Position numbers and translations under genes: made by a program. 64,000 bases of DNA, taken from Candidatus Rifleibacterium amylolyticum. GTDB taxonomy: Bacteria; Muiribacteriota; Ozemobacteria; Ozemobacterales; Ozemobacteraceae. Below, one piece after another: positions 9,563 through 45,618 of this stretch; within the stretch, counting starts at the first letter, position 1, and each line of letters starts with the position of its first letter. The notes beneath the pieces are model-generated. The model had not been told where the DNA came from. It was given only the letters and a program-made list of their open reading frames with translations, and did no database searches. The stretch is taken from the NCBI GenBank assembly GCA_009917695.1, contig JAACJG010000009.1, positions 62,001-126,000 on the forward strand, read 5' to 3'.

Positions 9563-9655
9563 ATTTACCTCCGAACAGATAATACTATCTCCTTTCAACT
9601 ATCGGGTCGCCGGCAACTGAGAATAATAGCAAACCGGCAAAAAATGTTTTACCGA

Positions 9656-9685
9656 TTGGACTTTATGGCTTAGTGCAATTATAAT
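9656..9685 (+). promoter_or_regulatory. sigma-70-type promoter of the flavoprotein operon
   Basis: TTGGAC (9656-9661), an 18-base spacer and a perfect TATAAT (9680-9685) lie 33 bases before the first ATG of the operon. Confidence 0.55.
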
Positions 9686-9718
9686 GCGGCATGTCGAAAA
9701 TCAATACGGGTGAAGCTT

Positions 9719-10336: not shown

Positions 10337-10926
10337 TGAAGAAAACACAGGACTCCCCTAACAGAGAAAAATCTCTCTGGCAGCCGACAACTATTCTGGC
10401 ACCGGTTCCGGCGGTCATGGTAACCTGCCAGGGCAGTCAGGGCCGCCCCAATATCATTACTCTCGCCTGGGTCGGTACGGTGAATTCAGAACCGCCAATG
10501 CTGTCGATTTCGGTGCGCCCTGAGCGGTACTCTTATCCGCTGATCAAAGAAAGCGGCGAATTCGTGGTTAACCTTGCCGACCGCCAGACCGCACAGGCAA
10601 CCGATCTCTGTGGCGTAATCAGCGGCCGCGACCATGACAAGTTTCACGAAACCGGCCTGACGGCAGGACGCAGTCAGACAGTGCAAGCGCCGATAATAAT
10701 CGAATGTCCGATAAACATTGAATGCAAAGTCGAGCAGGAAATAGCTCTCGGCTCGCACAACATGTTCATTGCCCGCATCACAGCGGTGCAGGTAACACAG
10801 AAACTTATCGACAAGGACGATTGCCTGCATATCGAAAATGCCTCTCTGGTCGGATTTGCGCACGGACATTACTATCAGCTCGGCCGACAACTTGGACAGT
10901 TCGGCTTCAGTGTGAAAAAGAAGTGA
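10336..10926 (+). CDS. flavin reductase-like (flavoredoxin) protein
   Basis: A 196-residue FMN-binding split-barrel protein of the flavin-reductase-like family. The opening TTILAPVPAVMVTCQ, then NIITLAWVGTVNSEPPMLSISVRPERYSYPLI and FVVNLAD, match flavoredoxins and related proteins that bind FMN and shuttle electrons or reduce flavin for a partner. There are no NADH-binding motifs, as usual in the family. It is translationally coupled on both sides (1-base overlap before, 4-base overlap after) to the membrane protein and the HI0933-like flavoprotein, so it may supply electrons or flavin to them. Confidence 0.82.
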   Translation: MKKTQDSPNREKSLWQPTTILAPVPAVMVTCQGSQGRPNIITLAWVGTVNSEPPMLSISVRPERYSYPLIKESGEFVVNLADRQTAQATDLCGVISGRDHDKFHETGLTAGRSQTVQAPIIIECPINIECKVEQEIALGSHNMFIARITAVQVTQKLIDKDDCLHIENASLVGFAHGHYYQLGRQLGQFGFSVKKK

Positions 10927-12191: not shown

Positions 12192-12212
12192 AAACACAAA
12201 GGAATCCACACC

Positions 12213-13829: not shown

Positions 13830-13934
13830 TAATTGAACAAAAATGCTTTAAGCAAATCCGGCAATTCTGATACAATGAATATAATAAAATAGTTCCAGCT
13901 GGCGTCGGAACAAAAAAAATTAAATGGTGAGAAA

Positions 13935-15824
13935 ATGGATATTGAGAGAAATTGTGTCAACCAGCAGCTGCTGACTCAGATCGAAGAGGCAATTGCCTTA
14001 CCAGCGTTCAACGATAAGGCCGATGTTGACGCAAACGAACAGGCGGCGCGTTATCGGGAATTTTCGACACGCTGCTTCTGGCAGGAAATCGCAGTCGCCG
14101 CCACCCTGGTTACCTGTTTTTTCCTTGCCTATCTGATCTGCTATCTGGTCGGAATTGAATATGGCAGCTTTCTTCACGGCAAGATCCTCTACGCCGTGTT
14201 CGTATTCTTCAATATTTATGCGGCAGGCCAGGCATTTTACAGCTGGGCCGTCATGCGAAGCAAGAGCGTTGTACGTGACTACATGTTCTTCTGGGCGATC
14301 GCTTTTATCGGCGCTGCCATTGGCAACTCAATCGATTATCTGCTCTGGGTAAGCGAAACAGCCGAATTCAAGCAAAATACGCTGACCAATCTGATTTTTG
14401 TTTTTTCAATTATTTTGTCATTTCCAGCCATTTATTTTCTAGCTCAAGTTTGTAAGGTAAAGATTACCAGACAACCCATACTGTATTTCCTGCCAATGAT
14501 GTTTACTTTTGCGATCATACCAGCCTTCATGAACCTCGATATTATTAAAAGCATTTTTGGCGCGGCCAGCCTCGAGAGCATACGCAATATACCGAACCTC
14601 AAAGAATTTCTTTTTGGCTTTTTTTATTCACTGGCTGCCGGCTATATTTCTGCCGTAAGCCTCTTCATCTGGCAGTCAGGAAAAGGTCGCCTCGTCCATT
14701 CAGCCAGACTGGTAACGATCGGCACTATACTCTTCAGCTTCAGCTGTGCAATTTATGCCGGTTTTTTCCCGTCAGCGCCATTGCTCGATATTCCGGGCAA
14801 TCCGGTTCACATACTTATCGCTTTGAGTTATGTGCTGGTAGCCCTCGGCGTCAGACGCAGCGAAAACACGATCAAACTGCTGATGAATCTTGAAACGAAT
14901 CAGCTGCCCCCGGCGGTAACTTTGATGGAACTCTTCGGTGAAACCGAAGGGCTGGCTGTCTACAAACGTCTTGAAAACAGCGTTGAGAAGACTCTTCTCG
15001 AATTGATGAGATCACGCGAAGAAACGCAGCACAAGCAGAAAGAAATCGGCCTGCTCGAACAGGAGATCGCGCTCAGAAAAAAGACAGAGCATGAGCTGTT
15101 GCTGGCAAAGGAAAGAGCCGAGGAAGCCAGTCGCGCCAAGTCAGAGTTTCTGGCCCTGATGAGTCACGAACTCAAAACTCCGCTGACGGCTATAAAAGGT
15201 TACAGCGCCCTGCTAAAAGACAATACCTTGAAAAAGCTCATAGAAACGCAGCAAATTTCAGGTGTTGCTGCTGAGATACAGGTCAATTCAAATCATCTCG
15301 AACAGATGGTTAACGATCTGCTCGAGTTTTCTCAGCTCGAAAGCGGTCGCCTGGAATATGAAAAAGAAATTTTTTCTTTCGACGAGATTCTTGCTTACAT
15401 CCGATCGATCAGCAACACACACCAGCAAACTATCGGCTGCAAGTACACCGAGATAATCCCCGATGAAGCAATCAAAGTTGAGGCAAACCGCAAGGTTATT
15501 CAGCAGATTATCACCAATCTTCTGGTGAATGCCTTCAAGTTCTGCAATAAGACAAGCGTAACCCTTGAAATAACGAGGTCAGCTTCAGATTTGAAGATAG
15601 TCGTCGCAGACGAAGGCATCGGCATAGCAAAAGATCATCAGGAAAAAATCTTTGAAGCTTTCTTTCAGGTAAGCCTTGGCACAACTAGAAAATATGGTGG
15701 TATCGGCCTTGGACTGAGCATTGTAAAAAAACTGGTCACCTGGCTCAATGGCTGCATAAAGCTTGAAAGCGCCCCTGGCCAGGGAAGCCGCTTCGAAGTT
15801 ACGCTTCCCGTCATTGCAAAGTGA
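13935..15824 (+). CDS. membrane sensor histidine kinase, 7TM-type input
   Basis: A 629-residue sensor kinase. The N-terminal ~320 residues contain about seven to eight hydrophobic helices and no obvious extracytoplasmic domain, like the 7TM histidine-kinase input modules. A coiled coil (about 355-400, rich in E, K and R) leads to a HisKA domain with phospho-acceptor His411 in MSHELKTPLTA. A HATPase domain follows, with its N box (NLLVNAFKFCNKT) and G boxes (DEGIGIAKDH, GGIGLGLSIVKKL). There is no receiver domain, and no response regulator gene adjoins it, so it is an orphan kinase. GGTGAG stands before the ATG. Confidence 0.88.
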   Translation: MDIERNCVNQQLLTQIEEAIALPAFNDKADVDANEQAARYREFSTRCFWQEIAVAATLVTCFFLAYLICYLVGIEYGSFLHGKILYAVFVFFNIYAAGQAFYSWAVMRSKSVVRDYMFFWAIAFIGAAIGNSIDYLLWVSETAEFKQNTLTNLIFVFSIILSFPAIYFLAQVCKVKITRQPILYFLPMMFTFAIIPAFMNLDIIKSIFGAASLESIRNIPNLKEFLFGFFYSLAAGYISAVSLFIWQSGKGRLVHSARLVTIGTILFSFSCAIYAGFFPSAPLLDIPGNPVHILIALSYVLVALGVRRSENTIKLLMNLETNQLPPAVTLMELFGETEGLAVYKRLENSVEKTLLELMRSREETQHKQKEIGLLEQEIALRKKTEHELLLAKERAEEASRAKSEFLALMSHELKTPLTAIKGYSALLKDNTLKKLIETQQISGVAAEIQVNSNHLEQMVNDLLEFSQLESGRLEYEKEIFSFDEILAYIRSISNTHQQTIGCKYTEIIPDEAIKVEANRKVIQQIITNLLVNAFKFCNKTSVTLEITRSASDLKIVVADEGIGIAKDHQEKIFEAFFQVSLGTTRKYGGIGLGLSIVKKLVTWLNGCIKLESAPGQGSRFEVTLPVIAK

Positions 15825-16018
15825 CCGAGAGATTCTCAGGCAGCATTTTTCGACTGCCGGCCGCTAACTCAGCAAAGCATTAATTCCAGACGGGCAGGCT
15901 ATCCCGAATCCTGCGACTGCGTGCCGGATGGCTATGACACAATTGTCGGATATTGTCCGGCTTCGTCCGCCGGCTGCGTGAAAAATAACAGAAAAGTTCG
16001 CAACCAGAGACTTGAATT
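15825..16018. other. intergenic, nothing assignable
   Basis: Between the histidine kinase stop and the leftward terminator I see only a five-pair hairpin (GGCAG/CTGCC with a T-rich loop) just after the stop, which could serve as a weak terminator, and no credible coding frame. Confidence 0.4.
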
Positions 16019-16260
16019 CGCTAAAAAAAAGGGCCCCTGGTCAGAAAGCCAGGGGCAAAGTGAGAGGATCTTTTGAGAGGATACGTGAAGTCGCGCGGGG
16101 ACGCGACTAAGCGTAAAAACAAAAACTGAATTGTAGAAAACCTGGTGTGACAGATATGTTACGAAATATACAGCATAAGTTTGTAACAACCGCTTACGCG
16201 GTGGCACCTGACAATTCAGTCTCTTGTTGACAAAGAACTGTAACTTAATAAGCAATAAGC
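16019..16260 (-). ncRNA. candidate structured small RNA with strong terminator
   Basis: Read leftward, the sequence has a ten-base complementary pair ACTGAATTGT/ACAATTCAGT (16220..16211 with 16134..16125). It encloses a hairpin ACCGC-GTAA-GCGGT (16202..16189) with a GNRA tetraloop. Next come a GTCGCG/CGCGAC hairpin (16107..16090) with a C-rich loop, two copies of TCCTCTCA 13 bases apart (16081..16074 and 16068..16061), and an intrinsic terminator. No convincing reading frame covers it. It matches no RNA family that I recognise. The 5' end is uncertain and no clean promoter was found, so the extent is approximate. Confidence 0.55.
16023..16056 (-). terminator. rho-independent terminator, leftward
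   Basis: GCCCCTGG/CCAGGGGC is a perfect eight-pair stem with an eight-base loop (16033-16040 with 16049-16056). On the minus strand it is followed by CC and eight T residues (16030..16023). No leftward gene ends here, which is what points to the RNA gene upstream of it. Confidence 0.85.
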
Positions 16261-16318
16261 GTGCCAACATTCAAAAACATTAAAAACACCGAATTATGCG
16301 AGTTTTATCAAATCCAGT

Positions 16319-16352
16319 CATGTGTAATTTTCGCACATGTGAAATTTTTGCA
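16319..16352. repeat. tandem 17-bp repeat with TGTG...CACA symmetry
   Basis: Two adjacent 17-base units, CATGTGTAATTTTCGCA and CATGTGAAATTTTTGCA, each contain a TGTG-(N9)-CAC(A/G) inverted repeat. The spacing and symmetry resemble sites for CRP/FNR-family regulators, though the half-sites are one base further apart than in E. coli CRP sites. They lie between the leftward RNA candidate and the hslO promoter. Confidence 0.45.
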
Positions 16353-16440
16353 CGCACAGCGGCAAAAATAACTCAACCTGTGCACGCAGATGACAAGTTA
16401 TCCGTCCAGATCGACTCTACCAGAATCATCAATTTAATCA

Positions 16441-16469
16441 TTGAATTAAGTCGTGTGCGAAGGTATAAT
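16441..16469 (+). promoter_or_regulatory. sigma-70-type promoter of hslO
   Basis: TTGAAT (16441-16446), a 17-base spacer and TATAAT (16464-16469). This leaves a leader of about 80 bases before the preferred hslO start. Confidence 0.65.
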
Positions 16470-16555
16470 ATACGCTGCTTTTAACAAGACCGGCACCGGT
16501 TGTGTCTGCCGCAGATGCGCAGCTGGCGATTTTTTCTATGAGGCTCGAGCTAAGC

Positions 16556-17440
16556 ATGGATCAACTTTTTTATGGTTATTCCAGAGAGAAAATGATTTCT
16601 CTAACCTTCGCCGACGTCACAGAATCAGCTAAACTCCTCGAAAAAAAGCATCTCTCGGGGCCAACTGCCGGCAGATTTCTGGGCGAGGCCCTTGTCGCCG
16701 CAGCGCTTTTATCTGCCAACCTGCACAATGAAGATGAGCGCATTTCGCTACAGGTGCAGGTCAGCGGCCCAATCGGCGGCTGTCTGGTTGATGCCTCTCG
16801 CAACGGCAATCTACGCGGCTACACTATGATCAAAATACTCAACGACTTCGATGTCTCGGACTCTACTCCATTGCAGAAGGTGCTCGGAGATGCCGGAGCC
16901 CTAACATTAATTCATTCCAGCCGCAGCAGCGTGCTTTCGCAGCATCAGATTCAATGCAACCCCATGAATCTCAGACACGGACTGGCAAGATACTTCAACG
17001 ACTATCAGCAAAAACCCACCGCCATCGAAATCAGCGCTACCAGTCGAGATCATTACCTGCACCGGGCTGTTGGTCTCTGCATGAGCAGAATGCCGGAAGG
17101 CCAGTCGGAGAATTTCATCCCTCTCCTCGAAAGATTCAACGACAAAACCATCGCAAAGGCTCTCGACCAGGCAGTTGACATAGAAGTGCTCAGCAACATG
17201 CTTGGGCTTGAAGATCTGGTAATTCTTGAACGCCGCGTTCTCGCGGCAAAATGCACCTGCAGCCATGAGAAAGTATTATATTCGGTCTCATGTCTGCCAG
17301 CAGAGGAACTCGAAGAAATCCTCGAACAAAATGAAATCCCTGAAGTGACCTGCCATTTCTGCAGCAGTTCATACCGCGTGGAAACAGCAGAAATAGCCCG
17401 TCTGCTCCGAGAAAAAAAAGAACAGCAGGACAAAGAATAA
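16556..17440 (+). CDS. hslO: redox-regulated chaperone Hsp33
   Basis: A 294-residue cytosolic holdase activated by oxidation. The frame is open to a GTG at 16502, but alignment with Hsp33 proteins places the start at MDQLFYGYSREK. Typical segments are GPTAGRFLGEALVAAALLSA, QVSGPIGGCLVDA and the SSVLSQHQIQC region. The C-terminal zinc site is intact: CTC near residue 242 and CHFC near residue 273 give the C-X-C...C-X2-C tetrad that releases zinc on disulfide formation. A promoter lies upstream, and a secreted-protein gene follows 21 bases after the stop. Confidence 0.92.
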   Translation: MDQLFYGYSREKMISLTFADVTESAKLLEKKHLSGPTAGRFLGEALVAAALLSANLHNEDERISLQVQVSGPIGGCLVDASRNGNLRGYTMIKILNDFDVSDSTPLQKVLGDAGALTLIHSSRSSVLSQHQIQCNPMNLRHGLARYFNDYQQKPTAIEISATSRDHYLHRAVGLCMSRMPEGQSENFIPLLERFNDKTIAKALDQAVDIEVLSNMLGLEDLVILERRVLAAKCTCSHEKVLYSVSCLPAEELEEILEQNEIPEVTCHFCSSSYRVETAEIARLLREKKEQQDKE

Positions 17441-17461
17441 CGAGAAATTCTGGAGGAAATT

Positions 17462-18220
17462 ATGAAAATGCTTCGACCCCTGGCCATAGTGGCTCTGATA
17501 CTGGCCATATCCGGCACACTGCATGCCTTTTCAGGCAATGAACGCAGCGAATTTGCCAACAAGTTCATGGTTATGAAAAAGCTCGCAGCAAGCTGCCGCA
17601 GCACCAGCGAAAATACATCTGTAGCAGCTCTCAACGCCTTGCGCGAAGTGTTTTTCCGCAACACTGAAGCTTATGGAATGCTATCTGCTTCGAGTGAGAT
17701 GACAGGTGATTCTTTTCAGGGGCTTTGCGATAAAATGAATTCTGATGTCGACAAAATCTACACCGGCATAAGAAATCTCGAAAACAGCCTGAAGGTTTCT
17801 GACCCCTACGACATCTCTGACAAATACCTCAACGAAATTTTGCGATTTCTGCTGATCTCAGAAATCACCATGATACTGAATGATCAGCAGTTTTTTGTCA
17901 CACGCGACAAAATCATAAGCGACATTCAGCAGAGCCGTCAGTTCGTGCTCTCGGCGATGTATGTTCCACCGACCGGCGCTGCCAACAGCGACCTGCTTGT
18001 TCTCGACCGCCTCTCAAATCTGGTCGATCTTGCCGGCTACATTTATAACGAACAGGTGCAATGGATGATGAACTGTTCTTTCGCCGTGCAGAATCTCGAC
18101 GTCACCAGCTATTCCATTGCCGGGGACAGCGTTTTTAAAGGGTTTGCAACTAACCGGCCGCCGCGGCTTTACATACCTGGCGACCCAGATGATTACACAC
18201 TGTCGGGCGGTTCCCGCTGA
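17462..18220 (+). CDS. secreted protein of unknown function
   Basis: A 252-residue protein with a signal peptide (MKMLRPLAIVALILAIS, cleavage probably after LHAFS) and a strong TGGAGG before the ATG. The mature part is helical and polar, with no motif I recognise; it has three cysteines (in SCRS, GLCDK and MNCSF). It follows hslO by 21 bases and may share its transcript. Periplasmic or outer-membrane location is inferred only from the signal peptide. Confidence 0.65.
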   Translation: MKMLRPLAIVALILAISGTLHAFSGNERSEFANKFMVMKKLAASCRSTSENTSVAALNALREVFFRNTEAYGMLSASSEMTGDSFQGLCDKMNSDVDKIYTGIRNLENSLKVSDPYDISDKYLNEILRFLLISEITMILNDQQFFVTRDKIISDIQQSRQFVLSAMYVPPTGAANSDLLVLDRLSNLVDLAGYIYNEQVQWMMNCSFAVQNLDVTSYSIAGDSVFKGFATNRPPRLYIPGDPDDYTLSGGSR

Positions 18221-18272
18221 TCTGAAAACAAGGCATTGCCAGTTCAGGGCAAATGCCGTATAGTCCGGTAAA

Positions 18273-18776
18273 TCAGAGGTCTGAGCTCAGGTTCAGACCT
18301 TCAATTTTTATGCCCTTCAACAGGCCATTATCACTCAATTGTCGCTCGCCGGGCTGAAAACTGCCACCGGCATCACGTGGCTCAGCGCCAGGCATCGGCC
18401 GGCCAGCATCTTTCGCAGCATCTTGCTGCATGCGGCGCTCAGTGTCGCGATGTATTTCCAAAGCCTCGGCATCACTTATCTCACCATTATTGTCGGCATC
18501 GAAACGACGCAATATTCTTCGGTAAGCCTGAGGATTATTATCGCGTTGATGATTCAAATGACCTCTGACGGCCGCAAGAATTTCTTCTTCACTGACAACG
18601 CCATCTCCATCAGCATCGATATTCGGAGGAGCGGGCTGCATACCTGGTTGAGGCCTGTTCCTGTCCTGATTTAGTCTGGGGAAAAGGCGCGGCCGGTTGG
18701 GAAAGCGCTGACCGGGCTGCTGCGCCAACAGAACCGTTGAACAAAAGCACATACAGAAAAGAATTTTGAATTTCAC
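18273..18776 (-). CDS. secreted EF-hand calcium-binding protein
   Basis: A 167-residue protein with a signal peptide (MKFKILFCMCFCSTVLLA) and a proline/asparagine/arginine-rich linker. Two EF-hand loops follow, DADGDGVVSEEE (about residues 55-66) and DADNNGEISDAE (about residues 93-104), both with the acidic residues needed at positions 1, 3, 5 and 12. The C-terminal tail is low in complexity. It is likely a calcium-binding periplasmic or surface protein. It lies just downstream of the NFACT-R gene on the same strand (six-base gap), although a functional link is not evident. Confidence 0.78.
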   Translation of the reverse strand: MKFKILFCMCFCSTVLLAQQPGQRFPNRPRLFPRLNQDRNRPQPGMQPAPPNIDADGDGVVSEEEILAAVRGHLNHQRDNNPQAYRRILRRFDADNNGEISDAEALEIHRDTERRMQQDAAKDAGRPMPGAEPRDAGGSFQPGERQLSDNGLLKGIKIEGLNLSSDL

Positions 18777-18781
18777 TGGTC

Positions 18782-19195
18782 TTATCCCCCACCCGCTTCG
18801 GGATTGTATTCTGGTAATACTGAAGGCCGTACCTTGATTACCTTTTCATTTTTTATGCTCACAGTACCTTTTGGCGAACCTGAAGGCTTGCTGACAAAAC
18901 GCGCCAGCGTCATCGAAACCGGTGTGATACCGCCATTGCGGCCTTTACTGTGCCAGACCGCTGCTGCAGCGGCGGCTTCGATTGTCTTTTTATCAGGTTC
19001 TTCGCCGCTGGTTGAGCGCAGCAACACATGGCTGCCCGGCATGCCGCGCACGTGAAACCAGAGGTCATTCGGCGACGCTGCCTTCAGGCTGATAAATTCG
19101 TTGTCATTGCTGGTGCGGCCGGCAATGATGTAAAAACCTTCGGCCGGCTGATATATAAATGCCTGCCGTCGCAACTGACCCAGATCTTCGATCAT
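18782..19195 (-). CDS. stand-alone NFACT-R (DUF814) RNA-binding protein
   Basis: A 137-residue protein made of only the NFACT-R domain found at the end of RqcH/FbpA/NEMF proteins. The signatures are DLWFHVRGMPGSHVLLR, the AAAAVWHSKGR helix and VSKPSGSPKGTVSI. Full-length RqcH is a ribosome-quality-control factor of about 550 residues; the NFACT-N, HhH and coiled-coil parts are missing here and no fragment of them lies upstream. GGCGGAG before the ATG and a divergent xthA gene show that the short form is the intended gene. Binding of tRNA or stalled 50S particles is the family-based expectation. Confidence 0.82.
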   Translation of the reverse strand: MIEDLGQLRRQAFIYQPAEGFYIIAGRTSNDNEFISLKAASPNDLWFHVRGMPGSHVLLRSTSGEEPDKKTIEAAAAAAVWHSKGRNGGITPVSMTLARFVSKPSGSPKGTVSIKNEKVIKVRPSVLPEYNPEAGGG

Positions 19196-19277
19196 GAAGC
19201 ACTCCGCCGTGAATTTGCACTGTTAACCCATGTAGTATAATATAAATTCTCACATTTAACCAGCAGGCGGAACACCC

Positions 19278-20090
19278 ATGAAAATAGTCACTTTTAACGT
19301 CAACGGCATACGGGCACGGCTTCACCAGCTCCAGAAGCTGATCGAAAAGCACCGGCCAGACATTATCGCAGTTCAGGAGATTAAATGCGTAGACGATGCA
19401 TTCCCTTATGACGCCATCAGCGAGCTTGGTTATCACAGCGAGGTCTTCGGCCAGAAAGGGCACTACGGTGTCGCCCTGTTATCACTGCGAAAGCCTGTCG
19501 ATGTCAGACGCAATTTCCCAGGCAGCCCTGCATGCGCGCAGCGCCGTCTGATCGTCGGCACCTGGGTAGATGACAGTAAAAGACCACTGGTAGTTATAAA
19601 TGGCTATTTTCCTCAGGGCGAAAGCCGGGAACACCCCGAAAAGTTTCCGGCAAAACAAAAGTTTTACGCTGATCTGCTGGCCTATCTGAAATCTGATTTC
19701 AAGCCTTCCGACAATCTTATCATAGTCGGCGACATGAACGTGGCACCTGGTGATCTTGATATAGGAATCGGCGAAAAGAACGCGCAACGCTGGCTGAAAA
19801 CCGGCAAATGTTCGTTTCTGCCCGAAGAGCGCGAATGGCTTAATCACCTGCTCAATTGGGGCACCCGCGATCTTTATCGCGAGCTACACCCAGACTGTAA
19901 TCAGTGGTTCAGCTGGTTCGACTATCGTTCTGGCGGATTTGAAGACGAGCCCAGAAGAGGCCTGCGCATAGACCTGATGCTGGCGACCGCTGCTCTGCTT
20001 GAGCGCTGCCAGAGCGCAACCATCGACTACGAGATCAGAGGTATGGAAAAACCCTCTGACCACGCGCCGGTGCTGGTCGAATTCAGCTGA
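19278..20090 (+). CDS. xthA: exodeoxyribonuclease III
   Basis: A 270-residue endonuclease/exonuclease/phosphatase-fold enzyme for base-excision repair (AP endonuclease and 3'-5' exonuclease). It shows the conserved blocks in order: TFNVNGIRAR, VQEIKC (metal-binding Glu), GHYGVALLS, VINGYFPQGE, IVGDMNVAP (catalytic Asp/Asn), WFSWFDYR and the final SDHAPV with the catalytic His. Length is normal. It starts after GGCGGAA, divergent from the NFACT-R gene with a short shared promoter region containing TATAAT. Confidence 0.93.
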   Translation: MKIVTFNVNGIRARLHQLQKLIEKHRPDIIAVQEIKCVDDAFPYDAISELGYHSEVFGQKGHYGVALLSLRKPVDVRRNFPGSPACAQRRLIVGTWVDDSKRPLVVINGYFPQGESREHPEKFPAKQKFYADLLAYLKSDFKPSDNLIIVGDMNVAPGDLDIGIGEKNAQRWLKTGKCSFLPEEREWLNHLLNWGTRDLYRELHPDCNQWFSWFDYRSGGFEDEPRRGLRIDLMLATAALLERCQSATIDYEIRGMEKPSDHAPVLVEFS

Positions 20091-35901: not shown

Positions 35902-36565
35902 CAAACAATGGAACCAGGTACACGGAACCCGCAACTGGGGACGTTACCCGGCAGAAGAACTGGTAAGATTTATGGCGCGTAATTACTACAACCAGCAACG
36001 GAACCTGATCAGAGTGCTCGATCTTGGTTGCGGTACAGGTGCCAACACCTGGTTTCTCTGCCGCGAAGGCTTTAATACAGTGGCATTCGATGGTTCTTTT
36101 GTCGCTACTCAAAAAGCAGCGGCCTTTTGCAGCGAACTTGCAGCGCCTGGCGTTTTTCTGCAGGCTGATGCCGGCATGCTGCCTTTTGCAGACAGCGTAT
36201 TCGATGTGGTAGCCGATATCGGTGCGATTTCTGCCAACAACAGCCGCGGTATCAGTCAGATACTGCGAGAAATCTGGCGGGTTCTCAAGCCGGGCGGACG
36301 GGTGTTCTCTTCAGTGCTGTTCACAACTTCGACCAGCGGCTACAAGACCGGCGAAAAAATAGACAGTCACAGCTATCGCAATATTGAATCAGGGCCAGTT
36401 GCCGGACTCGGCACCATTCATTTTTTCACCCGAGCTGAAATTAAAAGAGTATGGCAGCAGGCAGGGTTTGAACAGCTGGTTATCGACGTGATCTCACGCA
36501 CAGATCATGGCGGCAGTCAGCGGGTCAGTTTTTATACAGCGGCCGCCCGCAAGTCTGGGGGCTGA
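35888..36565 (+). CDS. class I SAM-dependent methyltransferase
   Basis: A 225-residue methyltransferase with a clear motif I (VLDLGCGTGANTWFL), an acidic motif II (TVAFDGS), the LQADAGMLPFADSVFDVV region and the post-motif helix LREIWRVLKPGGRVFSS. It belongs to the broad UbiE/type 11 group. Placement at the end of the sugar cluster suggests methylation of the glycan or of a lipid-linked sugar; the substrate cannot be deduced. AAGGA lies upstream of the ATG, inside the previous gene. Confidence 0.8.
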   Translation: MQTFDKQWNQVHGTRNWGRYPAEELVRFMARNYYNQQRNLIRVLDLGCGTGANTWFLCREGFNTVAFDGSFVATQKAAAFCSELAAPGVFLQADAGMLPFADSVFDVVADIGAISANNSRGISQILREIWRVLKPGGRVFSSVLFTTSTSGYKTGEKIDSHSYRNIESGPVAGLGTIHFFTRAEIKRVWQQAGFEQLVIDVISRTDHGGSQRVSFYTAAARKSGG

Positions 36566-36566
36566 C

Positions 36567-37085
36567 ATGTCAGACCAGACCAGCAAAATCAGCAACAGTT
36601 CAAAACTTTCAGTTGTTCTCATCGAACCAGATATACCGCAGAATACCGGCAACATTGCGAGACTATGTTATGCAACCGGGTGCGAACTTGTGCTGGTCAG
36701 ACCTTTCGGCTTCAGGCTTACAGATGCATCATTGCAGCGGGCCGGTATGGATTACTGGAAAAATCTAGAACCCCTGATTCTTTCTGATGTCGAAGAATAT
36801 TTCGAATGGGTCGGGCCGCGCCGAGTCTACTATCTTTCTGCACATGGCAGTCGCAACTACGCGCAAGTCAGCTATAACTCAGGTGATGTTCTGGTGTTTG
36901 GCTCAGAATCGCGGGGACTGCCGGCAGAGGTGCTTACAGCCGGCAAAGCTGCGAACAGCCTGATTACACTGCCTATGATCGCACCCGCACGCTGCCTGAA
37001 TGTGTCTTCAGCTGCAGCCGCAACGGTTTACGAGGCTCTGCGCCAGATAAATCACTGGTCATCGTCTCCGCCGGAAAGTGTCTGA
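36567..37085 (+). CDS. trmL: tRNA (cytidine(34)-2'-O)-methyltransferase
   Basis: A 172-residue SPOUT enzyme of the TrmL (YibK) group that methylates the wobble ribose in tRNA-Leu. Motif 1 is EPDIPQNTGNIARLCYATG; motifs 2 and 3 are LVFGSESRGLPAEVL and ITLPMIAPARCLNVSSAAAATVYEALRQ. The start MSDQTSKISN is preceded by a GGGGG ribosome site overlapping the methyltransferase stop, and is one base after that stop. The final 34 bases overlap the convergent FmdB gene. Confidence 0.9.
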   Translation: MSDQTSKISNSSKLSVVLIEPDIPQNTGNIARLCYATGCELVLVRPFGFRLTDASLQRAGMDYWKNLEPLILSDVEEYFEWVGPRRVYYLSAHGSRNYAQVSYNSGDVLVFGSESRGLPAEVLTAGKAANSLITLPMIAPARCLNVSSAAAATVYEALRQINHWSSSPPESV

Positions 37086-37423
37086 GAAGGTGCATCCATT
37101 CCGCCATCCCCGCCGGCAAACTCTTCCTGCGCCATGCTTTCGATCTCTTCATCCATGTTTTCGCCCATTTCCCTCGCCATCTTCTTGGCCCATGTCGCGA
37201 AAGTGCGGGGATCATTTTCATCGAGTCCCGAAAGAGCTGAAGGGTCAGCAAGACTTTCCATTATCTGCTCTTCAGTACGCACCGTTTTGACGCGCGAGAC
37301 CAGTCGCCGGCAATTCGTTTCACCACAATGTTGACAGGCCTGAGGATTATCGCGATCAGCAATGCTGCACAGCACAGTGAACTTTTTAAAACATTTCGAA
37401 CAGCAGAATTCATAGAGCGGCAT
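37052..37423 (-). CDS. FmdB-family zinc-ribbon protein
   Basis: A 123-residue protein. The first ~50 residues form the FmdB regulatory zinc ribbon: MPLYEFCCSKCFKKF and then CQHCGETNC, giving two CXXC knuckles. The C-terminal part is acidic and Met-rich (DENDPRTFATWAKKMAREMGENMDEE) without known motif. The family is of uncertain function, sometimes linked to regulation of amidase/formamidase genes. Its 3' end overlaps trmL by 34 bases. Confidence 0.8.
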   Translation of the reverse strand: MPLYEFCCSKCFKKFTVLCSIADRDNPQACQHCGETNCRRLVSRVKTVRTEEQIMESLADPSALSGLDENDPRTFATWAKKMAREMGENMDEEIESMAQEEFAGGDGGMDAPSQTLSGGDDDQ

Positions 37424-37518: not shown

Positions 37519-40500
37519 ATGAGTCGCTCGCCTTACGAACTGATCAAAAGCACCGACGATGCACTCTGGCGTGAGGGTCTTGGGGCCCTGCTGATAGAAC
37601 ACACCCCGGAGTCGGGCGCAGCCATAATCGGCATGTTGTGTGACAAAGCCTGGCACAAACGCGAGGCCGCAGCAAAAGCGCTTCTCGAATGGGGCCCGGA
37701 AATCGGCCCTCTCATACTCGATCACCTCAACGAGCAGAATCACGACCAGTTTTACTGGATGTTGCATGTTCTTGGCCAACTGGGCGATGATAATTCACTG
37801 GCAGCTGTTAAACAAATACTTCACCACCGCGATGCTGAACTGCGTGGATATGCAATAAGGGCTGTCGCTTCCCACAAAAAAATTGAGAACGCGCGCACTC
37901 TTTACCCGCTGCTGAACGATCCCAACTGGGCAATTCGCAAGCTTGTGTTTGAGCAATTGCTGGCTTTTGGCGAGGCCATTCTCGACGACCTGCGCAAAAT
38001 TATCAACACGCCCTCCAAAGTGCCCAATCACAGTGTTATTGCTCTGTTTGTCAAGATCGGCCAGGACAACGTCATTGAAGAACTTCGCAAAATCTATCAG
38101 GATGGAACTTTTGCCCTGCGCTATTCGATAGTTTCTGCCTTGGGCGAACTCGGCACTGCTCCGGCCATAGACTTTCTCATTAACTCGATGGCTGATGGCT
38201 CATGGGCTATTAGGCAGTTGGCAGCCGAGCAATTCATAAAACTCGGCCCCAAAGTTTTCGAAAAGCTTACAGCTGCTTTCGGTCGCAGCGACTCATTGAT
38301 CAGATACGACATCATAAAAATTCTTGTCGAACTTCTTGGCGATAAGTCGATGCCGCTTATTCAAAGACTGTTGTCGGCTACCGACCAGGAACACAAACTT
38401 CTTGCGATAGAGAATCTGACCAGACTCAAGAGCGATGATGCCACCGCGACCCTGTTGCGTTGTCTGTCTGACCATGACCGCATAGTCGCAGATTACGCGG
38501 CAGACTGCCTTTCCCAGAAGCCAAACCTCAACATAGAACTGCTACTTCAGCACTTGAACACCGAAGACGAGAACCTGAGATTTCAGATTATCAAGATCAT
38601 CGGTTCTATAGGCGGTATGGCGCTGTCACCGATCATTAAAATACTTGAGTCCGGCAACAAGCAGGAACGCCTCTTCCTGCTCGGCGTGCTTCAGAAAATA
38701 GCCCCACACCCGCAACTGATTGAGGTTTTGATACAGCTGTTAGGTGACGCCAATTGGCCGGTGCGCAACGCAGCGGCAAACTGTCTTGTTAACTACGGTG
38801 AGGCTTCAGTTACTTCGATCGTAAAAGCGCTTAACGATCATTCTGACGACATTCAGTTCTGGTCGCGAAAGGCTCTGGCTATGATAGGCCCCAGAGCAGT
38901 GATAACACTCAAGCAGATTCTCGAAGAGAATACTGAACCGGGCCTTATACCACATATCGTCTCGGCACTTCTGTCAATGAACCATCCAGAAGCCGTACCG
39001 GCGGTTACCCGATTTCTTGAAAGCAGCGACGACTATCGTATCGAGGCGGTCATGTCATCGGTTCCAAGTATCACCTCAAAAGATGTGGTTAACACGATTC
39101 TCAATCTGCTTACTCATCCCGACGAAAAAGTCTGCCGCTGGCTGGCGTATCTGCTAAAAAAGGCTGATGCGAACTCTTTGCGACGAACTGTATTTCTAGG
39201 TTTCAGCCATTCCAATGATATGGTTCGCTATTATATCGCTGAAGCTGTATCAGAGTGGAAGAACCTTACAGAAAACGACATCAAGGTTATTGCTCGCCAG
39301 CTGCAGGTCGAAAAATCTCTCAAGAACCTGCGTGCAATGGTCATGATACTGGCCCGCCATCCGTATCCTTCTACAATAAAAGCGCTTCAGGAATATCTTG
39401 AAGCCAGTCCGCCAACGACGATGCTAGATTTGATGCTGGTGGCAGCTGGGCAGAAGAAACCGGAATATCTGAAGATGCTTGACCAATTGCTGAATAGAAG
39501 GTCTGAAGTCATCACCATCGATGATGTCGATCGCGTCGGCAAAATTCTTGGACATGTCTATCAGGATCACCCGGAAGGCCTTGTTCAGGGGCTTACTTCG
39601 CCCAGCAAAGCCTACCGCCTGTGCTGCATTATTGCGCTCGATTCAATTGACGACCGACGCATAGCCTTTTCCATCATGGAAACCCTGTTACCCAATGAAG
39701 AGGCAGACGTTCTCTGTCGCGCAGTTAAAACTCTCGCCCGTTATTTCTTTCATGATGATTTCAGGCTCAAAGGTGCAATCACCGACTTTTTCCTGAGTCT
39801 TGGCAAAATGATCACCGAGCCGCTGAGCGAATACATTGAGGAACTCGAAAACGAAATAGACCGCAAATCTCTGGTAGACATGATCGAAAGCGTTGGTGGC
39901 AGCGTAGACCCCGAACTGTTGCGCCCCAAAGGCGAGGCGAAGGTTGTGCTGTCGGACAACCATCTCGACGAAGTTCTCGAAAAACGACGCCAGGCTCTCG
40001 AAGAACTCGAAAAATACGACGAACTCATCAAAACCACACACACACTCGATCTTTCGATCATGTTTACCGACGTCAAAGGCTATACGGCTTTCAGCGCCAA
40101 AGCCTCGCTGTCAGAAGTCATGTCGATGCTCAAACAACATGACGAAATTCTCAAACCGGTATTCGAAAAATACTCGGGTGATATTCTCAAAAAGATTGGC
40201 GATGCCTTTCTGGTGGTATTCGAAAATCACAATAACGCCATTCTCGCCGCCATTGAAATTCAGCGCAAACTTAACGCCTTTAATGCATCAGTAGCCGAAG
40301 AGCGCCGACTTGCCATCAGAATCGCCGTCAACAGCGGCTCGGTCATCAGAACTGAAAACGACGTTCTCGGTGATACAGTCAACCTCGCATCCCGCCTCGA
40401 GGGCATTGGCGATGCTTTCGAAATCCTGATCTCAGAATTCACCCTGCAACGAATCAACCGCCAGATCTTCGAGATAGAAGCACATGGCGAGCACATGCTC

Positions 40501-40545
40501 AAAGGCATCGACAAACCCGTAAAAGCCTACAAGGTAAAGTGGTAA
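37519..40545 (+). CDS. HEAT-repeat protein with C-terminal class III nucleotide cyclase
   Basis: A 1008-residue cytosolic protein. Residues about 1-800 are a continuous array of HEAT/PBS-lyase-like repeats (recurring motifs such as DPNWAIRKLVFEQLL, DGSWAIRQLAAEQFI, DANWPVRNAAANCLV). After a coiled coil (about 815-840) a class III adenylate/guanylate cyclase domain starts near residue 845. Metal-binding Asp are in SIMFTDVKGYTAFS and KKIGDAFLVVF, and the transition-state residues in LGDTVNLASRLEG. The Lys before IGDAF favours ATP as substrate. There is no membrane segment. It is convergent with the HEAT-PilT gene, 70 bases away, and the repeats look related. Confidence 0.88.
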   Translation: MSRSPYELIKSTDDALWREGLGALLIEHTPESGAAIIGMLCDKAWHKREAAAKALLEWGPEIGPLILDHLNEQNHDQFYWMLHVLGQLGDDNSLAAVKQILHHRDAELRGYAIRAVASHKKIENARTLYPLLNDPNWAIRKLVFEQLLAFGEAILDDLRKIINTPSKVPNHSVIALFVKIGQDNVIEELRKIYQDGTFALRYSIVSALGELGTAPAIDFLINSMADGSWAIRQLAAEQFIKLGPKVFEKLTAAFGRSDSLIRYDIIKILVELLGDKSMPLIQRLLSATDQEHKLLAIENLTRLKSDDATATLLRCLSDHDRIVADYAADCLSQKPNLNIELLLQHLNTEDENLRFQIIKIIGSIGGMALSPIIKILESGNKQERLFLLGVLQKIAPHPQLIEVLIQLLGDANWPVRNAAANCLVNYGEASVTSIVKALNDHSDDIQFWSRKALAMIGPRAVITLKQILEENTEPGLIPHIVSALLSMNHPEAVPAVTRFLESSDDYRIEAVMSSVPSITSKDVVNTILNLLTHPDEKVCRWLAYLLKKADANSLRRTVFLGFSHSNDMVRYYIAEAVSEWKNLTENDIKVIARQLQVEKSLKNLRAMVMILARHPYPSTIKALQEYLEASPPTTMLDLMLVAAGQKKPEYLKMLDQLLNRRSEVITIDDVDRVGKILGHVYQDHPEGLVQGLTSPSKAYRLCCIIALDSIDDRRIAFSIMETLLPNEEADVLCRAVKTLARYFFHDDFRLKGAITDFFLSLGKMITEPLSEYIEELENEIDRKSLVDMIESVGGSVDPELLRPKGEAKVVLSDNHLDEVLEKRRQALEELEKYDELIKTTHTLDLSIMFTDVKGYTAFSAKASLSEVMSMLKQHDEILKPVFEKYSGDILKKIGDAFLVVFENHNNAILAAIEIQRKLNAFNASVAEERRLAIRIAVNSGSVIRTENDVLGDTVNLASRLEGIGDAFEILISEFTLQRINRQIFEIEAHGEHMLKGIDKPVKAYKVKW

Positions 40546-40615
40546 ACGATCGGCCGCTTAGCTGACATCAGAAGTTGAGCCTTTAAAATCTGCAAGAGCG
40601 GGAATTCAAAGTCTA

Positions 40616-43414
40616 TCAGTGACCTTTTACCTGAGGCTTATCTGTTATCGCCGGTTTTCCAACACCGGGAGGCTGCTTATCACCCTTGGGAGCCTCACCT
40701 GTTGCAAATACGCGCCCGGTTTTCTTGCCCATGCGTTCTTCGAGACGCTTTTGGAATTCTTTCTTGTCTTCGGCGTTCTTGAGTCCGTCGTCGTAAGTGA
40801 TTTTTTTAGCGACAACAAGATCTTCCAGGCATTGATCCATGGTCAACATGCCATCGGCGCGGCTGGTCTGCATGATGGTGATCAACTGATCGGTCTTGTC
40901 TTCTTTGATACAGCGCTTAACTGGAGTTGAGCCGACGAGAACTTCGTAGGCAAGAACGCGGCCGGCAGAAAGGTAGGCGGGAACCAGTCTCTGAGAGACT
41001 ACTCCACGCAAAGTGCCGGCCAGCTGCATACGCACCGACTGCTGCAGATCGCCCGGAAAACTGCCGACAACACGGTGAATAGATTCATACGCGTTGATCG
41101 TATGCAGTGTCGAAAAGACAAGGTGACCTGTTTCGGCGGCGGCAATTGCCAGATTCATGGTTTCGAGGTCGCGCATTTCACCGACAAGTATGACGTCAGG
41201 GTCTTCGCGAAGGGCACTGCGAAGCGCGTTAGAAAACGACAATGTATTGGTGCCCAGTTCACGCTGGGTTACAACGCTGCGCTTATGCTGATGCACGAAT
41301 TCGATAGGATCTTCGATAGTGATGATATGGTCGTAACGCGTGCGATTGACGTAGTCGATCATCGCCGCCAGAGTAGTCGATTTACCTGAGCCGGTGGCGC
41401 CGGTCACCAGAATCAGTCCGGTCTTATTGTTACAGATCTTTTCCATTATCGTGCGGTCGATCGACAATTCATCGAAGCTTGGCACGGTATTTGGAATAAT
41501 TCGAAATACGCCGGCCATACCGTTCTTCTGCATGAACACGTTGACGCGGAAACGGGCACAATCTGAGACTTCATAAGAGAAGTCGAGTTCCATGCGCTCG
41601 TTGAACTCGCGTTTTTGAGCATCATTCATGATCGAGAACAGCAGAAAACGGCTTTTCTCAGGAGTTATTGTTTCGAAAGTGGTTCGAATCAATTCTCCAT
41701 GAATTCTTATGCTGGGCGGAAGGCCGATCGCGATATGCAAGTCGGAGCCGCGCTCTTCGTGCAGATAATACAGAAGCTCTTTGAGATCGGTAATGTTTTC
41801 TTTGTTGAATTTGCGCCGCAGAACCCTGGTTTCGACATTCTCAGGTTTGAGCGAGTCGAACGTGATCTTTTCATCGCGCAGCACAGCATCGAGCTGATCT
41901 TCGGAAAGCTTGGAAACCAGCGAAATCATGCGGTCTTTCTCGACGTCGGTAGAATTGTCATAAAGGTTGAGAAAAGACGAAACGCCAAAATAGTCGCGGC
42001 GCTTGAGAATCTCGCGCGACCACCAGGCAATGTCTGAACTCTTATCGAAGCAGGCTGCAACCAGCTCTTTGAGGAATGCCTTGCGGTGCTGACGCGAAAG
42101 ATTTTCAACAATTGTATGTCTGATCGAGAGATCTTTGTCATCAAGCTTCAACAACAGCAGACCAGCAATAAGCTCAAATTTTTGCAGCTTGGCAATGGCT
42201 TCAATGGCGCATGTTCTCACCAGAGTGTTTCTGGAGTTGTCGATAAGAAAAAGCAGCGGGCGCAAAGCCTCTTTTGAGCCGATAACACCAATGACCTTGA
42301 GAACCTGAATAATAAGCTCTTCGTCTTCTGTGTCGAGACAGGCCAGCAAGGGGTCTACCGCATGAACACCCAGCTGTGAAAGAATTCGATGTGAGTATTC
42401 CTGAATGAAAATCGATTCATCTTTGAGATATGGCAGAAGTTCTGCGACGACAGAGGGGTCTCTTACTTCGCCCAGCGCGGTAAGCAGAAAATATTTGGCC
42501 TCCTGGGTCGGAGCGCCGAACTTCTCGTTGAACAGCTTGATTACTTCGAGGCCGAGAACCTTGCCAAGCAACATCATCATGCTGATGCGGGTTTCTTTTG
42601 TCGCAGTCGGGAAAATCGCCATGACCGGCGCCACGACTTCACGCCCCCAGTTAGTCAGCGACTTTATCGCTTCCTGACGAACTACCATCGAATCATCATC
42701 GAGAAGACCGAGCAGGGTCTTCATCGAATTCTCGTTCTTGATTTCGCCAAGACCGGCGCAGATATAAGGCTTATAGGCTCCGGTGCGGTCTGACTCAAGC
42801 ATGCGCTGGAAAAGCATGAACGCTTTTTCACGCAGAATCAGCGGGATAATCTTTATGCATTCATATTTCTGCTGACTTGAACAGCTCTGAAAATATTCCT
42901 GAATGATCTGGTAAATCGAATCACCCTGCTCAATCAGCGCGCGTTTTGCCTGCTTGCGAACGATCCAGCTCGGGTCGGAAATCTTATCGAGAAAAGCGAC
43001 AATTACCTTTTTATCAGGGTTTTTGGCGAGGGCTTCAACGACTATTTTTCTGATTTCGTCGTTTTCGCGGCTGTTGAGGATGTCAAGAAGTTCATCCTGA
43101 TGGACAAAGCCGAGTTCGATAAGAATAAAAAAGGCCCAGAAGCGCACAGTCATGTCTGAAGAAAGGCGCAAAGCCGGCAATACGTCTTTCAGAATTGTCG
43201 GATAGTTGATGACTATCTGAACAGCCTTCTTCTGAATACTTTCAAATTTACTGGCGAGTGCGATCGGCAGCGTGGTTGAAATGACTTTTTTCTGCTTTTC
43301 CGAGTTCTGTGACTGTAAAAGTGATGCCAGCTTGTCCAGAGCCTGCTCGTTATCAAGAAAGTCCTGGCTGCGCAGTTTGTCCTGTAGACTCTTTAAGAGG
43401 ATTTCCTCTATCAT
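40616..43414 (-). CDS. HEAT-repeat protein fused to PilT-type retraction ATPase
   Basis: A 932-residue protein. Residues about 1-525 are HEAT repeats (DPSWIVRKQAKRALIEQG, DDSMVVRQEAIKSLTNWG). Residues about 545-890 are a complete PilT/PilU ATPase: the N-terminal PAS-like part (GSDLHIAIGLPPSIRIHGE), Walker A GATGSGKSTT near 670, the Asp box ITIEDPIEFVH, Walker B ALREDPDVILVGEMRD and the His box AAETGHLVFSTLHT. The AIRNLIRE-type motif of PilT is altered (TDQLITIMQTSRADGMLTMDQCL). Normal PilT is ~345 residues and lacks the repeats, which may dock it to a pilus base or a regulator. Confidence 0.9.
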   Translation of the reverse strand: MIEEILLKSLQDKLRSQDFLDNEQALDKLASLLQSQNSEKQKKVISTTLPIALASKFESIQKKAVQIVINYPTILKDVLPALRLSSDMTVRFWAFFILIELGFVHQDELLDILNSRENDEIRKIVVEALAKNPDKKVIVAFLDKISDPSWIVRKQAKRALIEQGDSIYQIIQEYFQSCSSQQKYECIKIIPLILREKAFMLFQRMLESDRTGAYKPYICAGLGEIKNENSMKTLLGLLDDDSMVVRQEAIKSLTNWGREVVAPVMAIFPTATKETRISMMMLLGKVLGLEVIKLFNEKFGAPTQEAKYFLLTALGEVRDPSVVAELLPYLKDESIFIQEYSHRILSQLGVHAVDPLLACLDTEDEELIIQVLKVIGVIGSKEALRPLLFLIDNSRNTLVRTCAIEAIAKLQKFELIAGLLLLKLDDKDLSIRHTIVENLSRQHRKAFLKELVAACFDKSSDIAWWSREILKRRDYFGVSSFLNLYDNSTDVEKDRMISLVSKLSEDQLDAVLRDEKITFDSLKPENVETRVLRRKFNKENITDLKELLYYLHEERGSDLHIAIGLPPSIRIHGELIRTTFETITPEKSRFLLFSIMNDAQKREFNERMELDFSYEVSDCARFRVNVFMQKNGMAGVFRIIPNTVPSFDELSIDRTIMEKICNNKTGLILVTGATGSGKSTTLAAMIDYVNRTRYDHIITIEDPIEFVHQHKRSVVTQRELGTNTLSFSNALRSALREDPDVILVGEMRDLETMNLAIAAAETGHLVFSTLHTINAYESIHRVVGSFPGDLQQSVRMQLAGTLRGVVSQRLVPAYLSAGRVLAYEVLVGSTPVKRCIKEDKTDQLITIMQTSRADGMLTMDQCLEDLVVAKKITYDDGLKNAEDKKEFQKRLEERMGKKTGRVFATGEAPKGDKQPPGVGKPAITDKPQVKGH

Positions 43415-43761: not shown

Positions 43762-43790
43762 ACTTAATCGGGCTCCCAATCTCATTATTA
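43762..43790 (-). repeat. terminal fragment of the same dispersed repeat
   Basis: Leftward it reads TAATGAGATTGGGAGCCCGATTAAGT, the end block of the element with an internal deletion of the CCGCCGA segment. It overlaps the stop codon of the HTH-PIN gene, so the gene's last codons abut the repeat. Confidence 0.5.
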
Positions 43791-44489
43791 GTAACCGCAG
43801 ACAGGAAGGCCGGGAGTTTTGAGCAGGATGCGGTCAGAAGTCACAAACATGGCAGCTCCGGCTTCGATGCAGCAGCAATAGCTCTGCAGTGATATCTCAG
43901 CAGCAGCGGTGGGAAGTTCAAGGGCGCGCCTCAGCGCTGCTTCGCTCAAGGGTGCCAGTTCGAAAATATTCTGCGCCAGAACGAAATCGAGCAGTGCGGG
44001 ATAGTGCCCGGGAATTCTGGCTGCGCGCCGCAACACCCACAGAGCCAGCGGAACGGAAATGACCAATCCTTCAGCCCGGCCAGCAAGTGCCATTAGACCG
44101 GCAGCACCTTCTCCATCAGTCAACCATGTCATCAGTGGCCCGGCGTCAAAAGCCAGCAACCCGCCGGTAAAACCGGGCATGCGTTCAGAGACAACATTTT
44201 CAGGGGCCTTGATCAGCCCGCGCAACAATCCCCTGCCGGCGATAAAACGTTCGCGCCAGTAGGCGGTGCGGGCAGCCGGATTATCCGAATACAAAGCGCC
44301 GCGCCTCTGATCAAGCCAGGCAGAGACTTCAGCTTCAACAAAAACGGTACGGCGACCGGCATGACGAGCCATTATGGCAAACTCCGGCCGATGATTGGGT
44401 GAACTCGGCGAGATCCAGGCCTGTACAGTATGCCGCGACACCCGCAACAGCGACGCCACTTCACCGAGCGTTATCAATCTGTCAGCCAT
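43788..44489 (-). CDS. HTH (excisionase/MerR-like) and PIN-like domain fusion
   Basis: A 233-residue protein. Residues about 5-62 are a winged HTH of the helix_turn_helix_17 type (LITLGEVASLLRVSRHTVQAWI...FVEAEVSAWLDQRR). Residues about 110-225 look like a PIN ribonuclease domain, beginning LLAFDAGPLMTWLTDGEG (Asp115) and ending AAMFVTSDRILL (Asp219). Two acidic residues expected in active PIN domains are not evident (VPLALWVL and ISLQSYCC at their places), so nuclease activity is doubtful. Antitoxin-like DNA binding and toxin-like domain are thus in one chain. AGGAGA precedes the ATG and 10-bp iterons lie just upstream. Confidence 0.7.
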   Translation of the reverse strand: MADRLITLGEVASLLRVSRHTVQAWISPSSPNHRPEFAIMARHAGRRTVFVEAEVSAWLDQRRGALYSDNPAARTAYWRERFIAGRGLLRGLIKAPENVVSERMPGFTGGLLAFDAGPLMTWLTDGEGAAGLMALAGRAEGLVISVPLALWVLRRAARIPGHYPALLDFVLAQNIFELAPLSEAALRRALELPTAAAEISLQSYCCCIEAGAAMFVTSDRILLKTPGLPVCGY

Positions 44490-44805: not shown

Positions 44806-45618
44806 ATGTCCATGGTATCAATGAAAAGCCTGCTCGAAGCCGGCGTACATTTTGGTCATCAGACCAGAAGATGGAACCCCAAGATGGCCAAGTACATCTT
44901 CACCGCCCGCAACGGCATCTACATTATCGACCTGCAGAAAACCACCAAGCTTCTCGATGAAGCCTGTGATTTTATCAAAAGCGTCGTGCGCGAAGGCAAA
45001 CCTCTGCTTTTCGTAAGCACCAAGCGCCAGGCACAGGACATCATCAAACAGGAAGCCGAACGCTGTGGCATGTATTTTGTCAACTATCGCTGGCTTGGCG
45101 GTATGCTGACCAACTACGTAACTATCGAAAAGCGCATCAAAAGACTGAAAGAACTCAGTGAGCTGATCGACAGCGGCAAAATCGAGTCATACCCGAAAAA
45201 AGAAGCTTCTAAAATGAAGAAGGAATGCGAAAAACTTGATCGCGCTCTCGGCGGAATCAAGAACATGAAGGGCATGCCCGGCGCTCTGTTCGTAATCGAT
45301 CCTCACAAAGAAGCTATTGCCGTTGCCGAAGCCAGAAAAATGGGAATCCCCATAGTATCTGTTGTAGATACCAACTGCGACCCCGACAACATTGACTTCG
45401 TTATCCCCGGCAACGACGATGCAATCAGAGCCGTCAAGCTGGTTACCGGTATCATCGCCGACTCAGTCCTCGAAGCACTCGAAGGCAAGTCATTCGAAAA
45501 GGTCAGCGAAGAAGCTGAATCACGCGATGAAATGGCTGAAGGCGAAATCGACATGGCTGCCGCACTTGGCAACGTAGAAACCGCCGATGACGCTGACGAC
45601 AAACTGGTAATAGACTAA
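44806..45618 (+). CDS. rpsB: 30S ribosomal protein S2
   Basis: A 270-residue S2 protein, part of the 30S head-platform junction. Signatures: the opening [61 protein letters not shown] and [21 protein letters not shown]. The C-terminal ~40 residues are an acidic extension ([31 protein letters not shown]). CCGGAGGT serves as ribosome site. It is the first gene of the translation/lipid block that continues to rseP. Confidence 0.97.

Follow-up and report, generated by a model that had tools for sequence, protein, structure and literature searches.

The convergent genes and their products

The window, by which is meant the whole stretch of 64,000 nt that was analysed, lies on contig C9 of the 5.39-Mb draft genome G000 (Ozemobacteraceae, Candidatus Riflebacteria), and in the list of its ORFs two long ones stand tail to tail. 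HEAT-CYC (37519..40545, + strand) specifies a 1008-aa soluble HEAT-repeat class III nucleotide cyclase and HEAT-PilT (40616..43414, - strand) a 932-aa HEAT-repeat ATPase of the PilT/PilU family, with 70 bp (40546..40615) between their convergent stop codons. The preliminary description had placed two giant HEAT proteins here in just this orientation, and Pfam, with HEAT_2 and Guanylate_cyc in the one product and HEAT_2 and T2SSE in the other, bears it out. The lengths that it gave for the HEAT stretches also hold up well against Pfam and AlphaFold models, being ~795 residues in HEAT-CYC and ~520 in HEAT-PilT. On sequence comparison these are not chance ORFs, because orthologues 41-94% identical are present across the family.

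On the cyclase side there is a small zinc-ribbon protein (37052..37423, - strand), which we take to be FmdB-like; it is divergent from HEAT-CYC and, by synteny and alignment, conserved at its side. Beyond it is a SpoU/TrmL-type methylase gene (36507..37085, + strand; Pfam, synteny), which in several genomes stays close to HEAT-CYC even though PilT lies apart. A gene for an HTH_17 protein (43788..44489, - strand; Pfam, synteny) adjoins HEAT-PilT, and not far off is rpsB (44806..45618, + strand; Pfam, synteny), which two genomes keep close to HEAT-PilT although their cyclase gene lies apart.

What sort of cyclase is involved? Pfam finds HEAT_2 (2.4e-53) and, at residues 844-1005, Guanylate_cyc (7.4e-23), and the PF00211 score of 81.5 bits against a cut-off of 21.9 identifies a class III cyclase domain. 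The HEAT solenoid, residues 1-795 (37519..39903, + strand), matches Pfam HEAT_2/HEAT and is all-helical in the model (pLDDT ~75-93). After it, at what is presumably the position of a cyclase transducer element, a linker helix of residues 813-837 (39955..40029, + strand) is modelled with low confidence, and the stretch 796-840 has 72% mean identity among orthologues. In the cyclase domain proper, residues 841-1008 (40039..40542, + strand), the two metal Asps (D851/D895), the purine-specifying pair (K891/D948, K891 being assigned by alignment) and the Asn/Arg pair (N955/R959) are invariant in all 21 aligned orthologues, so that the residues of a class III cyclase are all there and a homodimer-type site is complete. 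The K/D purine pair, which we take to be of the adenylate cyclase type, predicts ATP as substrate, and cAMP is the predicted product. A Pfam search of HEAT-CYC returned neither a membrane domain nor a sensor domain. Among known class III enzymes (PF00211), CyaB (3r5g, 50.4 bits) and Ma1120 (4wp3, 62.1 bits) were matched in a PDB search along with others, and the likeness is in the catalytic domain with its complete homodimer-type site; what differs is the input side, here a soluble HEAT solenoid of ~795 residues and not a membrane domain.

The motor is no less complete, as the preliminary description had it. HEAT-PilT has Pfam HEAT_2 (1.6e-30) and, at residues 606-819, T2SSE (6.8e-48), and scores 462.3 bits against NCBIfam TIGR01420 (PilT/PilU), where the curated cut-off is 319.1, which places it in that family. 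Its HEAT solenoid, residues 1-520 (41855..43414, - strand; Pfam, model), has 74% mean identity among 16 orthologues, and the PilT motor, residues 540-897 (40724..41797, - strand), retains its motifs in the alignment. Of 22 aligned sequences, 21 have Walker A as G.TGSGKST and one, the distant paralogue in G010, has GPTGHGKST; apart from small changes, none has lost the Asp box, Walker B or His box. In a PDB search the best match is PilT (3jvu, 350.6 bits), with PilU (9n32) at 284.8 bits. Though the complete motor (Walker A, Asp box, Walker B, His box) is thus shared with the type IVa retraction ATPases PilT and PilU, the 520-residue N-terminal HEAT solenoid and the C-terminal tail are not, and neither, it seems, in the HEAT-PilTs of the window's family, is the AIRNLIRE-like helix, a C-terminal element outside the TIGR01420 definition whose role in PilT we assume. 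In its place the window's protein reads TPVKRCIKEDK in the alignment, and its relatives within the family have variants of this. Since the usual helix seems to be replaced, the retraction activity of HEAT-PilT is uncertain; HEAT-PilTs of other families have a more usual form, and the ordinary PilTs of G000 vary there too. These ordinary PilTs, for which the preliminary description had suggested a search, are specified elsewhere in the genome by nine ORFs of 349-394 aa, two with degenerate motifs, and in a tree the HEAT-PilT motor clusters, with moderate support (90/85), with the ordinary PilT whose gene is beside PilB on contig C6.

AlphaFold gives a continuous alpha-helical solenoid for HEAT-CYC 1-795 and HEAT-PilT 1-520, mostly at pLDDT 75-93, and models the cyclase core and the PilT motor poorly, the alignments being shallow (12 and 16 sequences). 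As its best 50 matches a fold search with the HEAT-CYC model gave HEAT proteins of a generic kind (CAND1, karyopherins, SF3B1), none above a query-normalised TM-score of 0.24, and so that search says no more than that the array is HEAT-like.

Distribution and linkage in the phylum

The phylum sample comprised 39 genomes, 24 in the window's family and 15 outside it. HEAT-CYC orthologues occur in 23 of the 24, HEAT-PilT orthologues in 22, and both together in 22, a co-occurrence that fits what the preliminary description proposed for them. Contig ends truncate some of these orthologues, and in G005 one is split over two contigs. G023 (69% complete) is without both, and G010 has HEAT-PilT only as a distant paralogue, 39% identical and 2.4 kb from the cyclase. 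In the 15 genomes outside the family no HEAT-CYC orthologue was found, the best matches (≤190 bits) being to the HEAT part or the cyclase part alone. Among these 15, Pfam confirmed proteins that combine HEAT repeats with a PilT motor in three genomes, one from each of families f5, f7 and f8. A scan of wider genome contigs with the HEAT part of HEAT-PilT yielded 20 loci, of which 14 are labelled Riflebacteria, Ozemobacter or Ozemobacteraceae and six have vague or conflicting labels (e.g., Erysipelotrichia, Methylomirabilis); as such a scan can reach only close relatives, HEAT-PilTs elsewhere are possible.

Of the 22 genomes that have both genes, 14 have them side by side. The arrangement is convergent in 11, with gaps of 19-132 bp, and in the other three (G018, G021 and G022, all of genus g11) the genes are on the same strand, cyclase then PilT, with operon-like gaps of 34-49 bp. 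They are unlinked in seven (G008, G011, G013, G014, G015, G017 and G020), some of these calls resting on the neighbours of one side, and G004 was counted as neither linked nor unlinked. Since in the cyclase tree the linked G006 and G007 share a supported clade (100/99) with the unlinked G008, G017 and G020, most of the family probably inherited the linkage from a common ancestor, with at least two later losses. Such a history would suit a functional bond without demonstrating it. When the genes are apart the cyclase often stays by the TrmL-type methylase (G008, G014, G015, G017) and PilT sometimes by rpsB (G017, G020), and for that reason the adjacency may be inherited synteny; coinciding as it does with two conserved gene blocks, the linkage may mean nothing for function. 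Since block synteny accounts for much of the adjacency, this was rejected as a proof of coupling.

In three of the unlinked genomes, G020 and G008 (both g4) and G013 (g9), HEAT-CYC is followed directly, on its own strand, by genes for two membrane cyclases, one C2-like and one C1-like in the sense described in the last section (L185:1541-7557, L191:11222-17214 and L201:143-6129, respectively).

Pilus motors, HEAT scaffolds and cAMP

The type IV pilus genes presupposed by the preliminary description are there in abundance, G000 having 27 PF00437, 5 PilM and 98 N-methyl (pilin-type) matches, and with them, in 5.4 Mb, 61 class III cyclase and 19 cNMP-binding matches. That cyclases are statistically overrepresented near PF00437 genes as a whole was considered and rejected: for G000 a hand estimate predicts ~1.8 cyclase loci at 5 kb or less from a PF00437 locus, and the 3 seen are not a significant excess.

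Individual links of pilus motor genes with cyclase and HEAT genes are conserved. An overlapping operon on contig C2 (L148:6656-10147), conserved in relatives, has two PilT genes and a class III cyclase gene whose product bears a zinc ribbon at its C terminus. The cyclase (470 aa, PF00211 and zinc ribbon) is present in 11 of the 39 genomes at E ≤1e-60, and a PilT gene is directly upstream in 12 of the 13 loci examined, from 11 genomes, the 13th beginning at a contig edge; two pairs of the loci counted are pieces of one gene. G000 also has operons of two PilT genes and a HEAT/TPR gene (L149:5507-11959, L150:6412-10915), one of them flanked by more PilT genes, including two in which the Walker motifs are degenerate. 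PilT is directly upstream of the HEAT/TPR gene in all 30 loci examined, among 44 matches listed in 22 of the 39 genomes. Thirdly, on contig C17 there is a 604-aa PilT (L153:6221-8035) that scores 447 bits against TIGR01420 and carries an MshEN-like domain as well as, at its N terminus, a cNMP-binding domain. This fusion occurs in 13 of the 24 family genomes, and in the 12 of the 13 that were aligned (L259 being left out) the G-E and R residues of what we take to be the phosphate-binding motif are all kept. All three features are outside the window and, as far as sequences go, support a wider link between PilT and cAMP. Searches within one collection of open-access papers gave, among the matches listed, nothing relevant on PilT with HEAT repeats, on HEAT repeats with adenylate cyclase, or on PilT with cNMP and MshEN domains.

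Two further architectures in G000 are of note: a 1024-aa PilB-like ATPase with a C-terminal HATPase domain of the histidine-kinase type (L151:7003-10077, contig C21), and a second kind of HEAT-cyclase, of 754 aa, with sCache, HAMP, a partial cyclase domain and C-terminal HEAT repeats (L167:4406-6670, contig C2).

We incline, tentatively and well short of conviction, to HEAT-PilT and HEAT-CYC being soluble parts of a family-wide network of pilus retraction and cAMP, in which retraction motors, HEAT scaffolds and class III cyclases would have been repeatedly combined. HEAT-PilT would be an accessory pilus-retraction ATPase with a HEAT arm on each subunit, so that a hexamer would present six arms to the cytoplasm, there to dock to a scaffold or to a partner at the pilus base. 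HEAT-CYC would be an adenylate cyclase, soluble and homodimeric, with a long HEAT array that takes up a protein signal; passed through the linker helix to the catalytic pair, and gated by a partner bound to the array, the signal would become cAMP, to be read by, among others, the cNMP-binding PilT and transcription factors. HEAT-CYC could in this way report pilus or surface state, and HEAT-PilT could be one motor of the same circuit with no need for permanent mutual binding. The recurring PilT-HEAT and PilT-cyclase links are better support for a shared circuit than is the one convergent pair.

There is a precedent in the surface sensing of Pseudomonas aeruginosa (PilT/PilU, Pil-Chp, cAMP), where the likeness to what is proposed here is that of retraction motors and cAMP in one circuit. 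According to passages of one report, cAMP in Pseudomonas is high in pilU mutants and low in mutants of pilA, pilT or pilJ (PMC12607626), and on the strength of those phenotypes a link from motor to cAMP, through Pil-Chp, is established there. The same passages call unclear how pilus pulling becomes a second-messenger signal (PMC12607626). While the Pseudomonas aeruginosa link runs via the Pil-Chp chemosensory system, here it is by operons, HEAT scaffolds and a cNMP-binding PilT that motors and cyclases are joined.

Could the two be mere neighbours? HEAT-PilT might be an accessory motor and HEAT-CYC one of ~60 cyclases with a separate signal, two gene blocks having been joined in the ancestor of most of the family. 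With 61 cyclase and at least 145 HEAT_2 matches in the genome, neighbours of such kinds will meet by chance, and the methylase kept by the cyclase in several unlinked genomes, the rpsB kept by PilT in two, and the membrane cyclases that g4 and g9 have directly downstream of HEAT-CYC instead, would all fit. Against this, adjacency persists in both deep branches of the cyclase tree, g11 keeps it though the cyclase's other neighbour has been lost, and the other PilT-cyclase and PilT-HEAT operons are conserved. On balance unrelated neighbours are unlikely, if by no means outlandish.

Direct binding of HEAT-PilT to HEAT-CYC is possible, and a stricter version would have the two HEAT arrays bind each other, or one shared partner, such that turnover or stalling of the motor gates the cyclase mechanically as a one-step surface sensor. 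The adjacency in 14 of 22 genomes, with the short same-strand gaps in three, would suit it, as would the slow change of the array on PilT and the likeness of the arrays in repeat type and register. Yet seven genomes have the genes unlinked, other families have HEAT-PilT and lack HEAT-CYC, and the similarity of the arrays is unspecific, and a couple of this kind is to be regarded as improbable. Quite improbable is the particular form in which a hexamer of PilT contacts the array of a dimeric cyclase through its HEAT arms, retraction load then setting cAMP in one step, with no chemosensory relay, and the cAMP-binding PilT closing the loop.

That unspecificity became apparent when profiles made from the orthologues of each array were run against the ORFs of the HEAT and motor loci fetched from G000, where there are at least 145 HEAT_2 matches. 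The two arrays align at ~25% identity over 383 columns in similar register (CYC 79-453 with PilT 92-470) and are of the same repeat type. To the cyclase-array profile, however, four other HEAT proteins score higher (L214 266, L211 238, L210 182 and L209 134 bits) than HEAT-PilT at 130 bits, and to the PilT-array profile three do (L210 182, L211 143 and L214 140 bits), with HEAT-CYC again at 130. The ranking is rough, longer proteins offering more repeats to score, and was made on an incomplete HEAT gene list (150 of 260 candidates scored, one 94-aa ORF left out). By it the two arrays are not nearest relatives, and they are members of one HEAT type common in the genome rather than a private pair. 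The idea in the preliminary description that a recent domain exchange gave both proteins the same array finds some comfort in the 383-column match, but is contradicted by this ranking, on which it was rejected, and by the spread of HEAT-PilT over four families of the phylum, in three of which no HEAT cyclase was found, and is scarcely credible.

To return to the reading of a shared network, the lineage offers several joints between pilus and second messenger, namely HEAT-PilT beside HEAT-CYC, the PilT-PilT-cyclase operon, the PilT-HEAT/TPR operons and the cNMP-binding PilT, and each is open to study as purified proteins.

Complementary half-sites in other cyclases

Many of the other cyclases of G000 are ~1000 or ~2000 aa long with predicted membrane segments. 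The site was scored in 42 cyclase domains (36 from fetched G000 loci, six from three relatives): it is complete in 12, has the metal Asp pair but lacks the Asn/Arg in 15, and has the Asn/Arg but lacks the Asp pair in 15. The membrane cyclases of ~2000 aa have two domains per chain, the first with the metal Asps and lacking Asn/Arg, the second with Asn/Arg and lacking the first metal Asp. Such fused cyclases are specified at L164:2751-8765 and 8816-14791 (contig C23) and at L163:8889-14849 and 14846-19900 (contig C1) in G000, and at L367-L378 in relatives. In all nine proteins, from nine genomes, with both domains checked the first is C1-like and the second C2-like; three more loci are cut and have the first domain alone visible. 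The family is present, at E 1e-100, in 18 of the 39 genomes. In sequence these fused bacterial chains resemble the mammalian C1/C2 pseudoheterodimers in having complementary half-sites. According to a 2022 review, no bacterium is known to have a class III cyclase of the fused dimeric kind (PMC9552081), and among the matches listed from the same collection of open-access papers there was no report of one.

The genes for the cyclases of ~1000 aa can also stand in tandem. In G000 there are arrays of them in which C1-like and C2-like domains alternate (L160:1910-13817, L161:1878-13800, L162:5450-17091, L165:2596-8534 and L166:1636-7480), an order of half-sites which suggests that heterodimers may be formed from the products of neighbouring genes.
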